Made by a program: the position numbers and the translations under genes. Of a DNA stretch of 32,610 nt, positions 24,625 through 32,610 are shown piece after piece. The number at the start of each line of letters is the position of its first letter. Position 1 is the stretch's first letter. The notes under the pieces were generated by a model, which was not told the DNA's origin, did not search any database, and was given only the letters and a program-made list of their open reading frames with translations. Source of the stretch: Candidatus Zixiibacteriota bacterium (lineage in GTDB: Bacteria > Zixibacteria > MSB-5A5 > GN15 > JAAZOE01); contig DAOUTW010000052.1 of the NCBI GenBank assembly GCA_030668485.1, positions 1 to 32,610 on the forward strand. The letters are read 5' to 3'.

Positions 24625-25614
24625 ATGAAAATTGTGTTTAACAAATGGATCCTGCGCTGGGGGAATATCCCGAAGTATATCACCTTGTCATTGGGGATAC
24701 TGGGTCTGGTATTTTTAAATTTAAACACTCCTTCGGCGACGGAGGTTCAACAGGGAAACGACATGAAATATAATAAATTAAGCCCGGAGGAAGAACAAGT
24801 CATTATCCACAAAGGCACCGAGCAGCCTTTTTCGGGAAAATTCAACGATCACAAACAATCCGGAACATATACCTGCAAACAATGCGACGCCCCCCTTTAT
24901 AAATCGGAGGATAAGTTCGATTCCCGATGTGGCTGGCCGAGTTTTGACGATGAGATCCCAGGAGCGGTAAGACGGGAGATTGATGTCGACGGCCGTCGCA
25001 CCGAAATCCTTTGCAACTACTGTGGCGCTCATCTGGGACACGTTTTTGATGGCGAACAACTGACCGATAAAAATATCAGGCACTGCGTCAATTCCATCTC
25101 GCTCAACTTCGACCCTGCCAAGCAGGAAAAGAAAACAGAGACGGCCTACTTTGCCGGCGGTTGTTTCTGGGGCGTCGAATATTTCTTCCAGAAAGAGGAT
25201 GGTATCGTCTCGACCAGCGTCGGATATATGGGAGGCCACAAAGACAATCCCACCTATCAGGAAGTTTGTGACGGAAATACCGGTCATGCCGAAGCGATTG
25301 AAGTCGTTTTTGATCCTTCGCTGATTTCTTTTGAGAAACTGGCGAGGCTGTTTTTCGAGACTCATGACCCTACCCAGATCGACCGACAAGGACCGGATAT
25401 CGGTGACCAGTACCGTTCGGCCATCTTTTACACCGGCGATGATCAAAAACAGACGGCAGAAAAACTTATCAAGGTTCTTACCGACAAGGGGTATAAAATC
25501 GCCACCGAAATAAATGCCGGGAGCAAATTCTGGAAAGCCGAAAATTATCATCAGGACTATTATCTGAATAAGGGTGGGCAACCATACTGCCACGGCTACC
25601 AAAAACGATTTTAG
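24625..25614 (+). CDS. msrAB: Exported bifunctional methionine sulfoxide reductase (MsrB-MsrA fusion)
   Basis: A 329-residue repair enzyme that reduces both stereoisomers of methionine sulfoxide in proteins. An N-terminal hydrophobic segment (about 17-34, ITLSLGILGLVFLNLN) acts as a signal peptide or anchor, so the mature enzyme is probably periplasmic. The MsrB domain comes first (about 48-163), with zinc ligands CKQC (84-87) and CNYC (130-133), Cys 102 in SRCGWPSF and catalytic Cys 154 in RHCVNSISL. The MsrA domain follows (about 172-325), with catalytic Cys 180 in GCFWG and a resolving Cys near the end (QPYCHGYQ). An internal ATG at 24763 (MKYNKLSPEE), exactly at the start of the MsrB domain, has AGGGA 6 bases upstream and might also be used to make a cytosolic form. 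Confidence 0.96.
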   Translation: MKIVFNKWILRWGNIPKYITLSLGILGLVFLNLNTPSATEVQQGNDMKYNKLSPEEEQVIIHKGTEQPFSGKFNDHKQSGTYTCKQCDAPLYKSEDKFDSRCGWPSFDDEIPGAVRREIDVDGRRTEILCNYCGAHLGHVFDGEQLTDKNIRHCVNSISLNFDPAKQEKKTETAYFAGGCFWGVEYFFQKEDGIVSTSVGYMGGHKDNPTYQEVCDGNTGHAEAIEVVFDPSLISFEKLARLFFETHDPTQIDRQGPDIGDQYRSAIFYTGDDQKQTAEKLIKVLTDKGYKIATEINAGSKFWKAENYHQDYYLNKGGQPYCHGYQKRF

Positions 25615-28706: not shown

Positions 28707-29171
28707 TTACGACATCTCAAAACGAAGAACGATCGGATCGACCAGGCGATTATAATCGGCATATGACATTTTAAACAGGTCGGAATGCGTACAGGCCTTA
28801 AAGGCGATTTCATCATCTTCGGCCAACTTTTGCGCCACATAAATGTCCAGACCGTAGAGATTGCCGAACGGCGGCATAGCGCCGATTTCACAATCGGGAA
28901 ACAAATCCTTGAATTCATGCTCTCGGGCCAACTCGACATCGTCCGATCCGACCACCTCTCGCAACAAGGCAAAATCTACACGGCAGGAGGCCGGTAGAAC
29001 CGCCATCGCCAATTTCCCCTGGATTTTGATAATAACCGTTTTGGCCAACTCTTTTCCGGAAATATGAACCGCTGCAGCCACCTGCTGAGCCGTGTATTTA
29101 ACCGGATGGCTGATTTCCTCATAATCGACCTTATGCTTGTCGAGATACTCTTTGAGCTTTTCTGAAGGCAT
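28707..29171 (-). CDS. ybaK: YbaK/EbsC-family aminoacyl-tRNA deacylase
   Basis: A 154-residue single-domain editing enzyme related to the INS domain of prolyl-tRNA synthetase. Such proteins hydrolyse mischarged tRNA (for example Cys- or Ala-tRNA-Pro) in trans. Family features are VDYEEISHPVKYTAQQVA at the start, GKELAKTVIIK with the conserved lysine, and IGAMPPFGNLYGLDIYV near residues 96-112, which corresponds to the GxxxPxG loop. The ATG at 29171 has GGAGG 5 bases upstream. It converges with the preceding gene with 19 bases between the stops. It stands apart from the ser operon, separated by that operon's terminator. The precise substrate cannot be assigned. Confidence 0.93.
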   Translation of the reverse strand: MPSEKLKEYLDKHKVDYEEISHPVKYTAQQVAAAVHISGKELAKTVIIKIQGKLAMAVLPASCRVDFALLREVVGSDDVELAREHEFKDLFPDCEIGAMPPFGNLYGLDIYVAQKLAEDDEIAFKACTHSDLFKMSYADYNRLVDPIVLRFEMS

Positions 29172-29477
29172 AATTACCTCCGTTTCTGTGGATTATCATT
29201 TTCGGGACTAACCGGAGGAAATCACGTGCGGCATCATTGTCCCGCGGATTTCATCTGAGCGGCGTTATCGATTCGCTACCTCGATGTTCAATTATTCTGA
29301 GTCAAATCCAATGTCGTAGTATTATATTCAGCGTTCGGGCGCCATATATTATACGCATCAGGTGCGTAGGTGGTTTAGTTTATTGACGAGCAAAAAAGTG
29401 GCCGGCATCTGTGAGACACCGGCCATTACTAATGTGTTACTTTATATATAACGCATTACTACCGTATACAAAATAGC
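29172..29477. other. Intergenic region between serC and ybaK
   Basis: These 306 bases hold the serC terminator (29392-29425) and the leader of ybaK with its GGAGG ribosome-binding site. TATAAT on the minus strand (within 29344-29354) could be a -10 for ybaK, but the matching -35 is poor. A short 5-bp hairpin (ACGCA...TGCGT, 29353-29367) is also present. No gene was recognised. Confidence 0.45.
29392..29425 (-). terminator. Rho-independent terminator of the serine operon
   Basis: Read on the minus strand, TGGCCGG pairs with CCGGCCA (29425-29419 with 29405-29399), and the pairing can continue inward with wobble pairs. The stem is followed by CTTTTTTG (T-run 29397-29392). It lies 53 bases after the serC stop codon. 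Confidence 0.9.
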
Positions 29478-30566
29478 TTACTGGTTGGCATTCATGAATG
29501 TCTCCATGAATTCCGCCAGTTTGGTAGCGCCCTCCAGAGGCATCGCATTGTACACTGAAACCCTCACGCCGCCAACCGAACGATGACCTTTGAGACCGAC
29601 AAAACCGGCCGCCTTGGCATCGGCGATAAGCTTCTTCTCCAGATCCTCATTGGGAAGGCGCATGGTGATATTCATCCAACTGCGACTATCAGGTTTGACC
29701 GTTCCCTTAAAATAATCGGGATACTTGTCGATCATGCCGTAGATCGTATCCTTCTTGGCCATATTAACCTTTTCGACCGCCTCCAAACCGCCCTGGTTCA
29801 TGATCCACTCAAAAACCAGCTTCATGACATAAATGCCGAAGGACGGCGGAGTATTATAGAGAGAGTTCTTGGCGGCGTAGGTCTGATAATTGAACATCGA
29901 GGGCAGTCCCTCTTTACATTTAGCCAGCAGGTCTTCTTTGATGACCACCAGAGTCACACCGGCGGGGCCCAGATTTTTCTGAGCTCCGGCATAAATCAGA
30001 GAAAACTTCGAATAATCGATTTTCCGCGATGCGATATCGGATGACATATCGCAAATCAACGGCACTTCGCCGGTATCCGGGAACTGATGAAACTGGGTTC
30101 CCTTGATGGTGTTATTCGAGGTTACGTGAAGATAAGCGGTATTGTCCGGATATGAAATATCTGCCGGTTTGGGGACGAAGGTATAGCCGTCATCCTTGGT
30201 CGACCCCGCCAGATGCATGTTGCCGATAATCTGGGCCTCTTTGATCGCCTTAGTCGACCAGGTACCGGTATCGACATAAGCACCGACCTGACCGTCATTC
30301 AGGAAATTGAGCGGGATATATGCGAACTGGCTCGAGGCGCCACCGGTCATGAAAAGAACTTTGTAATTATCGCCCAGTCCCAGAATCTCTTTGGCCAGGG
30401 CCATGGCCTGATTGTTAACTTCGTCGAACTCCGGAGAACGATGCGAGCTCTCGATGATCGACATGCCTGTCCCGCGATAGTCGATCAGTTCCTCCTGGAT
30501 AATCTTGAGAACATCCAACGGAATCGTCGACGGGCCGGGATTGAAATTGAAGACTCTATTTGCCAT
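29478..30566 (-). CDS. serC: Phosphoserine aminotransferase
   Basis: A PLP enzyme of 362 residues, the standard length. It converts 3-phosphohydroxypyruvate and glutamate to phosphoserine and 2-oxoglutarate, the second step of serine synthesis. The N-terminus FNFNPGPSTIPLDVL, the ESSHRSPEF block (39-47), GGASSQFAYIPLNFL (75-89) and the PLP-binding Lys 197 in IYAGAQKNLGPAGV are all present. It is the third gene of the ser operon, 39 bases after serA, and is followed by a strong terminator. The ATG at 30566 has GAGG upstream. Confidence 0.97.
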   Translation of the reverse strand: MANRVFNFNPGPSTIPLDVLKIIQEELIDYRGTGMSIIESSHRSPEFDEVNNQAMALAKEILGLGDNYKVLFMTGGASSQFAYIPLNFLNDGQVGAYVDTGTWSTKAIKEAQIIGNMHLAGSTKDDGYTFVPKPADISYPDNTAYLHVTSNNTIKGTQFHQFPDTGEVPLICDMSSDIASRKIDYSKFSLIYAGAQKNLGPAGVTLVVIKEDLLAKCKEGLPSMFNYQTYAAKNSLYNTPPSFGIYVMKLVFEWIMNQGGLEAVEKVNMAKKDTIYGMIDKYPDYFKGTVKPDSRSWMNITMRLPNEDLEKKLIADAKAAGFVGLKGHRSVGGVRVSVYNAMPLEGATKLAEFMETFMNANQ

Positions 30567-30605
30567 TTTTATTGCCTCACATCAAAAAGCGTTGAAACCA
30601 GTTTA

Positions 30606-31481
30606 CTACTTGTTTACGTACTCGCCGATCAACTGATCGATGATATCGCCGATCCGCAGCAGGTTTTCTTTGGTGGAAGCCCCGATATGCGGGATCGCAA
30701 TTACATTCGGCGCGTTCACGAGAGGCGAATTTTCCGGCGGATCGGAATACCAGACATCATTACCGTATCCGGCCAGTTTGCCGCTTTCGAGGGCCGCGAC
30801 AACATCTTCTTCGACAACGCATTTGCCTCGTCCGGTATTGACTATATAGGCGCCGTCCTTACACATCGCCAGCGTATCCTTGCTGATAATACCCTTGGTA
30901 TCATCGGTCAGTGGCATGTTGAGCGAAATATAATCGGACTCCGGCAGGACGTCTTTAATATCTTTCTTCATCTCGGCCACGTTATGATGATGCACGAAAG
31001 GATCGTAAGCGATAACATTCATACCGAAAGCCTTGGCCCTAAGACCGATCTCGGTTCCGATACGTCCCATGCCGAGAATACCCAGCGTTTTCTTGTAGAG
31101 CTCGGTTCGCTTCAATTGCTTCTTGATCCACTCGCCCTTCTTCATCGAGGCATCGCCTTTGGTGACATGATTGGGCATGGCGATCATCAGAGCAAAGGCC
31201 AGCTCGGCCACGGCAATTGATGACGCCGCCGCAGTATTATGGACGATTATCCCCTTCTCCTTGGCATACACAAGGTCGACATTATCGAGGCCGACACCGC
31301 CACGAATCACTAGCTTGAGATTGGGAGCCGCGTCGATATATTCCTTGGTGACCTTGGTCTTGCTGCGAATGAGTACCACTTCGCAATCAGCCACCCTGCC
31401 CTTGTCGTCGGTCACCTCGCCATATTTGGCCAGCTTTTCCGGGAGTCCCGGATCAAAAGCGTCGGATAACAAAATAAGCAT
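30606..31481 (-). CDS. serA: D-3-phosphoglycerate dehydrogenase, short form without regulatory domain
   Basis: A 291-residue NAD-dependent dehydrogenase that oxidises 3-phosphoglycerate in the first step of serine synthesis. The nucleotide-binding motif is LGILGMGRIG (about 134-143), substrate-side residues lie in RGGVGLDNVD, and the catalytic His is in IPHIGASTKENL near residue 270. The protein ends just after the catalytic core. The ACT (and intervening) domains that allow feedback inhibition by serine in longer SerA proteins are absent. The ATG at 31481 is chosen because GAGGT lies 8 bases upstream; a GTG five codons earlier overlaps that site. It sits 19 bases after the DUF1015 gene. Confidence 0.95.
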   Translation of the reverse strand: MLILLSDAFDPGLPEKLAKYGEVTDDKGRVADCEVVLIRSKTKVTKEYIDAAPNLKLVIRGGVGLDNVDLVYAKEKGIIVHNTAAASSIAVAELAFALMIAMPNHVTKGDASMKKGEWIKKQLKRTELYKKTLGILGMGRIGTEIGLRAKAFGMNVIAYDPFVHHHNVAEMKKDIKDVLPESDYISLNMPLTDDTKGIISKDTLAMCKDGAYIVNTGRGKCVVEEDVVAALESGKLAGYGNDVWYSDPPENSPLVNAPNVIAIPHIGASTKENLLRIGDIIDQLIGEYVNK

Positions 31482-31500
31482 ATTTATGTACCTCACTTTC

Positions 31501-32610
31501 CTAGTCGCTTAAGAGGTTTACCACCATACCGCTGCGCAGCTTCGGCTCAAACCAGGTCGATTTGGGCGGCATTACCTCACCGGCATCAGCAACTTTTATT
31601 AATTGTTGTATTGTCGTCGCAAAAAGAGAAAAAGCTAATTTGTATCGATTAGAATCGACCAGCCTGACCAGTTCCCCGGTGCCCCGGATACCGCCGACGA
31701 AATCGATTCGTTTGTCGGTCTTCGGATTATCGATACCGAGAATCGGAGAAATAAAATTGTCGCCCAGGATCGCGGCATCGATCGAATGAGTCGGGCTGGA
31801 GGCATCATAACTACCTTCTTTGGCCTTCAAGAGATACCATTTATTTTCGCAGCAAAGTCCGAATTGATGTGGTTCCGGCGGATTCACTTCGTCGTCATTG
31901 GATGACACCTCGAATTTCTCCGAGGCTTTTTCGAGAATCTGTTCGACGGTCATCCCGTTCATATCTTTGACAACCCGATTGTACGGCAGGATATTCAATT
32001 CCTTATCCGGAAAAAGCACATTGAGATAATAATTGAACGGTTCCGAACCGGTAAATCCGGGAGTCTTTTCGCGACTTCGGCGACATACCTCGCTGGCCGA
32101 GGCACTGCGATGATGACCGTCGGCAATATACAATTCGGGTATGGCGGCGAAAGCGCCGACAATATCACCGATAATCTGCGGATCATCCACAACCCAGAGC
32201 TCATGGCGGATTTTGTCATCGGCAACAAAATCGGTTGTCGGCGAACCGGCCGTCACCTTTTTGAATATATCATCTACCCGTTGATCAAATTTGTACGTGG
32301 TCAGCACCGGCCCTACCTGAGCCTCAAGGTAAGTTATATGGTTGGCCCGATCCTTTACCTTTTCCGGGCGAGTATGTTCATGCCTCTTGATTATTCCCCG
32401 GTCGTATTCGTCCACGGAATTCAGCGCCACCAGTCCGGTCTGGCTCCGGTTATTCATCGTAATCCGGTATAGATAGAGCGACGGATTTTCATCGCGAACC
32501 ATGATACCGTCATTATAGAGACGCATCAGGTTTTCTTTACCCCGTCTATATACTTCTTCGCTGTATTGATCGATTCCATCGTCAAATTCAAGTTCCGGCT
32601 TATTGACCCG
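31501..32610 (-). CDS. DUF1015 (COG4198) family protein, 5' end beyond the window
   Basis: The visible 369 codons run in frame through the window edge. The upstream residues (RVNKPELEFDDGIDQYSEEV) fit the family, so the ATG at 32526 is internal and the gene is partial. The hallmark YIADGHHRSASA (motif DGHHR) is present, as are RRHEHTRPEK-type (KRHEHTRPEKVKDR) and FVGGIRG segments. The DGHHR motif recalls the ParB/sulfiredoxin-like fold, in which a free-serine kinase (SerK) of archaea is found. The family is repeatedly encoded beside serA and serC. A role in phosphoserine/serine metabolism is therefore reasonable but unproven. It is the first visible gene of the operon. Confidence 0.9.
   Translation of the reverse strand, partial: RVNKPELEFDDGIDQYSEEVYRRGKENLMRLYNDGIMVRDENPSLYLYRITMNNRSQTGLVALNSVDEYDRGIIKRHEHTRPEKVKDRANHITYLEAQVGPVLTTYKFDQRVDDIFKKVTAGSPTTDFVADDKIRHELWVVDDPQIIGDIVGAFAAIPELYIADGHHRSASASEVCRRSREKTPGFTGSEPFNYYLNVLFPDKELNILPYNRVVKDMNGMTVEQILEKASEKFEVSSNDDEVNPPEPHQFGLCCENKWYLLKAKEGSYDASSPTHSIDAAILGDNFISPILGIDNPKTDKRIDFVGGIRGTGELVRLVDSNRYKLAFSLFATTIQQLIKVADAGEVMPPKSTWFEPKLRSGMVVNLLSD

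Follow-up and report, generated by a model that had tools for sequence, protein, structure and literature searches.

Archaeal SerK, a free serine kinase, has been proposed to serve serine assimilation (PMC5120207, excerpt; this word marks sources available in part). A survey of the ParB fold treats SerK together with SbnI and, in the excerpt available, makes no mention of DUF1015 or COG4198 (PMC12704722). Serine synthesis itself shows a recurrent gap in bacteria: 450 human gut genomes from diverse Firmicutes encode SerA and SerC and none of four phosphoserine phosphatases (2022 survey, PMC9026213, excerpt), Roseburia is likewise described as having SerA and SerC without a phosphoserine phosphatase (PMC7478625, excerpt), and GapMind records two Bacteroidetes without a SerB gap (PMC7311316, excerpt). 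In the literature searched, DUF1015 is mentioned by two papers, both only in passing (in one, serC, a dehydrogenase and DUF1015 lie side by side in Porphyromonas), COG4198 by one, and other identifiers by none; as this search did not extend to preprints or to most subscription journals, we make no claim of priority. Here we describe a DUF1015–serA–serC operon at the right edge of a contig of 32,610 nucleotides from Candidatus Zixiibacteriota bacterium (GenBank assembly GCA_030668485.1, contig DAOUTW010000052.1; this whole stretch is called the window). We propose, at a probability of roughly 0.6, that the DUF1015 protein is an enzyme of the SerK/SbnI fold that converts phosphoserine to serine in place of SerB, and that DUF1015, SerA and SerC would thus form a complete phosphorylated serine pathway. 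The proposal is based on the operon, the predicted fold, the motifs, gene linkage, co-occurrence with SerC and anti-occurrence with SerB; from these we infer the direction of the reaction and the roles of the residues.

The DUF1015–serA–serC operon

On the minus strand, starting at the window's right edge, open reading frame (ORF) calls and sequence place DUF1015, serA, serC and a terminator in this order:

31501-32610, minus strand: DUF1015 (PF06245), serine-linked type, from ORF and Pfam; 5′ part cut by the contig end
32368-32382, minus strand: HEHTR motif in DUF1015
32107-32121, minus strand: DGHHR motif in DUF1015
31540-31569, minus strand: PPKSTWFEPK motif in DUF1015
30606-31481, minus strand: serA, short 3-phosphoglycerate dehydrogenase of ~291 amino acids (aa), catalytic core only, from ORF, Pfam and curated profiles
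29478-30566, minus strand: serC, phosphoserine transaminase, above the TIGR01364 and NF003764 cut-offs
29399-29425, minus strand: the operon's intrinsic terminator, a 12-pair hairpin and, after it, CTTTTTT

This layout agrees with a preliminary description made from the sequence, which had the genes 19 and 39 bases apart and sharing one terminator. The serA/serC gap is 39 bases (30567-30605), and the DUF1015/serA gap is 19 bases (31482-31500) if the serA ATG at 31481 is used, which is preceded by GAGG (a GTG at 31496 is a possible alternative). The hairpin at 29425-29399 on the minus strand is by far the strongest terminator 3′ of serC. DUF1015 scores 268.5 bits against PF06245 (Pfam gathering score 25.8), and SerC carries Aminotran_5. 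SerA ends after the catalytic core, as had been described: it contains two 2-Hacid_dh domains (catalytic and NAD), the Pfam scan found no ACT domain, and its score against TIGR01327 is 284 bits, with just 300 of 525 positions matched and a full-length cut-off of 454. The idea that such a short SerA is a meaningful clue did not survive comparison, since both short and 528 aa SerA proteins adjoin DUF1015 (L083 from Clostridium magnum and L070 from Pelosinus propionicus).

The contig is exactly 32,610 bases long and ends inside DUF1015, with ~370 of ~415 codons in the window. The first ~44 codons (MAIVRPFKG...NPISF) form the very end of another contig of the genome, C115, on which this 5′ fragment is preceded by a promoter-like stretch and the inverted repeat CTGTGAAAATGTTCACAT. 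An in-frame ATG at 32526 was rejected as the start of DUF1015, the real N-terminal fragment being that on C115.

Fold and motifs of the serine-linked DUF1015

The structure was modelled with AlphaFold2 (pLDDT 96.2) for a relative of the truncated window protein, from locus L063, with 75 others in the alignment. A Foldseek search against the PDB gave nine chains at E ≤ 1e-3 (2.5e-8 to 1.5e-5), every one a free serine kinase, and these comprise SerK, the P. furiosus SerK homologue and SbnI. The free serine kinases reach VIA Z scores of 11.2-13.6, and the next match, a ParB-type protein, Z 4.7. Sequence comparison gives a fainter signal: searching PDB sequences with a single DUF1015 protein and with a profile retrieved no relative, the profile giving no SerK match up to E 10, and hhalign of DUF1015 against SerK reached E 1e-4 for one pair, aligning DGHHR and PK(S/T)T in order, weakly. 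For residues 253-377 of the model, matches of ACT type reached Z scores of just 2-3 and were set aside. Long frames of 604 and 718 aa, considered as DUF1015 gene fusions, appear by eye to be overlapping extensions instead.

Residues H122-E123, D209-R213, P394-K396 and T398 (L063 numbering) are invariant in 76/76 rows, and both HE and DGHHR are also found in the window. The HE, DGHHR and PPK(S/T)T motifs of DUF1015 follow the same order as those of SerK, which has PHEQL from residue 28, IVDGHHR and SPKTT; the equivalence of the HE motifs is based on motif order and structural range, not on residue alignment. The catalytic Glu30 of SerK, which we take to act as a base, sits in KPHEQL, as is seen from the letter that differs in the E30Q and E30A entries. 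The link between DUF1015 and SerK made in the preliminary description from the DGHHR motif is therefore well founded, and its suggestion that DUF1015 acts on serine or phosphoserine is the best reading.

If DUF1015 releases serine, phosphoserine would sit in it as in SerK, which PDB entry 5x0e shows together with phosphoserine and AMP. Glu123 (L063 numbering), the counterpart of Glu30, would protonate the serine oxygen as it leaves, while the phosphoryl group would be held by DGHHR 209-213 and Lys396 of PPKST and accepted by water or a histidine. A kinase working in reverse would need to build ADP or ATP out of a phosphate ester of low energy, and the serine pathway already starts uphill, so that a reverse kinase is energetically poor as the last step. 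These energetics, together with the serine T-box described below, make phosphoserine hydrolysis the best reading. Three roles had initially been offered: the missing last step fits best, given the anti-occurrence with SerB and the T-box, and the energetics make a reverse kinase unlikely; the third, a regulator, is weighed below.

Linkage with serA and serC and anti-occurrence with SerB

Among 83 genomes of the phylum Zixibacteria, 51 encode DUF1015, of the window type in 44 and of divergent types in seven (families f7 and f18, <250 bits), and 43 encode SerC over the cut-off. Window-type DUF1015 and SerC occur together in 42 genomes and are both absent from 38; SerC is found alone in one (G011) and DUF1015 alone in two (G018 and G058), and in all three of these the contigs stop at the operon (Fisher p 5e-20, relatedness uncorrected). 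From 585 loci located across GTDB genomes that span many phyla we also kept 80: serA and/or serC lies within 6 kb of DUF1015 in 48 of the 80, in the orders DUF1015–serA–serC, serC–serA–DUF1015, serA–DUF1015–serC and others. In 139 clustered loci the commonest neighbours are SerC (70) and SerA (68), followed by a family seen 12 times. Linkage goes with the PPK[STV]T motif (77/106 loci with it versus 2/28 without, a count that leaves out the 5/139 loci lacking a called DUF1015 ORF), and the neighbours of unlinked copies have no common theme (guanylate cyclase, ArsP, SBP_bac_5, VanZ, HhH-GPD and others). The DUF1015–serA–serC association is real and conserved.

Other DUF1015 types differ in these respects. 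The DGNHS type of Clostridia (L149-L167), in which DGHHR is replaced, is without all three SerK motifs in 19/19 cases and has no serA or serC nearby, and the PQKST type of Bacteroidales, also PF06245, shows no serA/serC linkage. As a separate observation, in many SerB-encoding Bacteroidota (L194-L229) the PQKST type lies among conserved neighbours that look gyrA/scpA-like by eye, away from serine genes. At L186 and L187 a threonine gene set follows immediately after a clostridial variant that has DGHHR but no PPKST. The set at L187 encodes homoserine dehydrogenase, homoserine kinase and an aspartate-kinase-like protein; L185 resembles this arrangement by gene sizes.

SerB was searched for with TIGR00338 (cut-off 144.15 bits). 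No protein of the window's genome, which is 99.95% complete, exceeds this cut-off, nor does any in the 83 Zixibacteria genomes. The best SerB-like protein of the window's genome is a 215-aa HAD on contig C59 (77.9-78.2 bits), which aligns with the M. jannaschii phosphoserine phosphatase over nearly its full length at 1e-12. The genome also encodes one MtnX-like and one PGP-like HAD phosphatase, and no PF00300 protein was found in it. Among Zixibacteria, 6/43 genomes with SerC and 3/40 without it encode a SerB-like HAD scoring above 50 bits, so that these HADs do not track the pathway. The absence of a visible phosphoserine phosphatase noted in the preliminary description thus stands for the window, and a genome-wide check, which it had proposed, finds no clear serB and one weak HAD candidate; because of the latter, the phosphatase gap in this genome is likely, not proven.

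Outside Zixibacteria, SerB is over the cut-off in 1/50 genomes with window-type DUF1015 (these represent 50 of the 77 loci in the initial selection). No contrast is possible in Clostridia, where some DUF1015 is present in 156/196 genomes and SerB in 0/196, and the argument from gammaproteobacteria that have DUF1015 and no SerB is void, as SerB is over the cut-off in just 36/140 of the class sample. Bacteroidota (n = 118) do offer a contrast, with DUF1015 in 105 genomes, SerB in 39 and both in 37. For the whole family there is no anti-correlation (SerB in 37/105 genomes with DUF1015 versus 2/13 without, p 0.2), and it appeared only when subtypes were split. DUF1015 sequences were taken from 36 of the 37 SerB-encoding genomes and from 44 of the 68 without SerB, the window type being assigned by 35 or 36 matches at 36 key columns. 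This type is present in 34/44 genomes without SerB and in 0/36 with it, the latter carrying other types; serA or serC lies near DUF1015 in 35/44 and 0/36, respectively. The 37th genome is a Dysgonomonas (G127; locus L130), which has both SerB and window-type DUF1015 and is the one such case among the 50 genomes above; with it included, the comparison is 1/37 versus 34/44 (p 1e-12). In a quick tree the window type forms a single clade (support 97) containing none of the 14 sampled rows from SerB-encoding genomes. We lean, narrowly, towards extending the proposal to this serine-linked clade as a whole, which would be a new non-homologous phosphoserine phosphatase on the ParB/sulfiredoxin kinase fold, filling the last step in many Firmicutes, Bacteroidota, Zixibacteria and members of other phyla.

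Regulation, alternative functions and known systems

A T-box leader precedes serC–serA–DUF1015 in four clostridial loci (L083, L073, L094 and L175). Its specifier loop triplet, read by eye, is UCC, a serine codon. This is biosynthetic control: a serine T-box implies induction by serine shortage, which points to biosynthesis. In Zixibacteria no riboswitch or leader was found before the operon in the loci scanned. A Rex-like inverted repeat is present there in 13/31 upstream regions, ~41-75 bases before the DUF1015 start, compared with 12/594 windows of the same loci, upstream regions included (examples are L042:7605-7630, close to where contig C115 ends, and L009, L010, L011, L025, L027, L030, L031 and L035). 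The consensus used for matching we take to be TTGTGAANNNNTTCACAA.

These Rex-like sites bear on the main rival to phosphoserine hydrolysis, namely that DUF1015 phosphorylates free serine as SerK does, SerC and SerA then operating in reverse from serine (or glycine via serine) to 3-phosphoglycerate and using NADH. NADH-dependent control would be in keeping with this direction, and the putative operator agrees better with consumption of NADH than with its formation. The best structural matches are serine kinases whose catalytic Glu is retained in DUF1015, and a serine kinase would avoid a futile cycle where SerB is absent. Reverse flow has been proposed for Desulfurococcales, in which SerK lies near serA and an aminotransferase gene (PMC5120207, excerpt), and COG4198 genes of Firmicutes have been placed under a glycine riboswitch (PMC2211319, excerpt); in the 36 loci that we scanned, none had a glycine riboswitch before DUF1015 at the gathering score. 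The serine T-box implies induction on serine shortage, a setting that hardly suits a serine-consuming kinase, and many hosts would hold serA and serC yet have no means to complete serine. Overall, we regard the kinase function as unlikely, though it deserves the most serious consideration among the alternatives.

Several of these points weigh directly against phosphoserine hydrolysis: the known members of the fold are kinases and their catalytic Glu is retained, the Rex-like operator suits the opposite direction, and mutual exclusion with SerB would be expected of a serine kinase too. The exclusion itself has limits. It holds for a subtype and not for PF06245 as a whole in Bacteroidota, it is broken by Dysgonomonas, and it follows clades, so that independent events are few. 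SerB absence is also common anyway (0/196 Clostridia; 36/140 with SerB in the class of G117), Zixibacteria without SerC or window-type DUF1015 likewise have no SerB over the cut-off, and the window's own genome encodes the weak SerB-like HAD.

DUF1015 might instead work alongside SerA or SerC in a non-catalytic or regulatory role, such as that of a sensor of serine or phosphoserine replacing ACT, while an unrelated phosphatase completes the pathway. The short SerA without ACT and the SerB-like, MtnX-like and PGP-like HADs of the genome would agree with this. The role is improbable given that DUF1015 also adjoins the 528-aa SerA (L070), that the SerK-type polar residues are invariant in all 76 rows and that SerB-like HADs above 50 bits do not track SerC in Zixibacteria. 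Least probable is that the HAD on C59 serves as the SerB of this genome and DUF1015 has another job, since this HAD, for all its similarity to serB and to the M. jannaschii enzyme, stays well under the cut-off, and such proteins occur in just 6/43 SerC-encoding genomes of the phylum.

The most likely function is thus that of a serine-kinase-fold enzyme carrying out the final step in making serine, which is a testable proposal. If true, DUF1015 would close much of the phosphatase gap of organisms with SerA and SerC across many phyla, false predictions of serine auxotrophy would be corrected, and one fold would serve phosphoryl transfer both ways, a kinase fold having been reversed into a phosphatase.

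Elsewhere in the window, a YbaK/prolyl-tRNA editing domain protein lies beyond the operon terminator (28707-29171, minus strand), and the frame at 24625-25614 (plus strand) looks by eye like a putative MsrB–MsrA methionine sulfoxide reductase fusion with a signal-like N-terminus.

Among known systems, ADP-dependent SerK of Thermococcus and Pyrococcus (PDB entries 5x0b and 1vk1) has the fold of DUF1015 model residues 91-415 and the HE, DGHHR and PK(S/T)T motifs, and in some archaea its gene lies near serA and an aminotransferase gene, like that of DUF1015. The two differ in length (242 versus 415 aa) and share ~14% identity. Unlike SerK, DUF1015 has an extra N-terminal ~90 residues with invariant PYD, E51 and Y66, and is found in bacteria with SerA and SerC, usually without SerB, and in Clostridia with a serine T-box. 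SbnI, a free serine kinase from the staphyloferrin B pathway, has the same fold (Z 11.2-11.9) and belongs to a siderophore cluster, not to a serine operon. SerB, a HAD phosphoserine phosphatase, has the reaction and place in the pathway proposed for DUF1015, is unrelated to it in fold and sequence, and seldom occurs together with it in Bacteroidota. A phosphoserine phosphatase of 'novel type' from Thermus thermophilus (title cited in PMC10665431, excerpt) is not a DUF1015 protein, judging by a Thermus composti control, which has no PF06245. Finally, iPSP, of histidine-phosphatase type (SerB2 of PMC9026213, excerpt), is a non-homologous replacement of SerB, as we propose for DUF1015, from an unrelated family.

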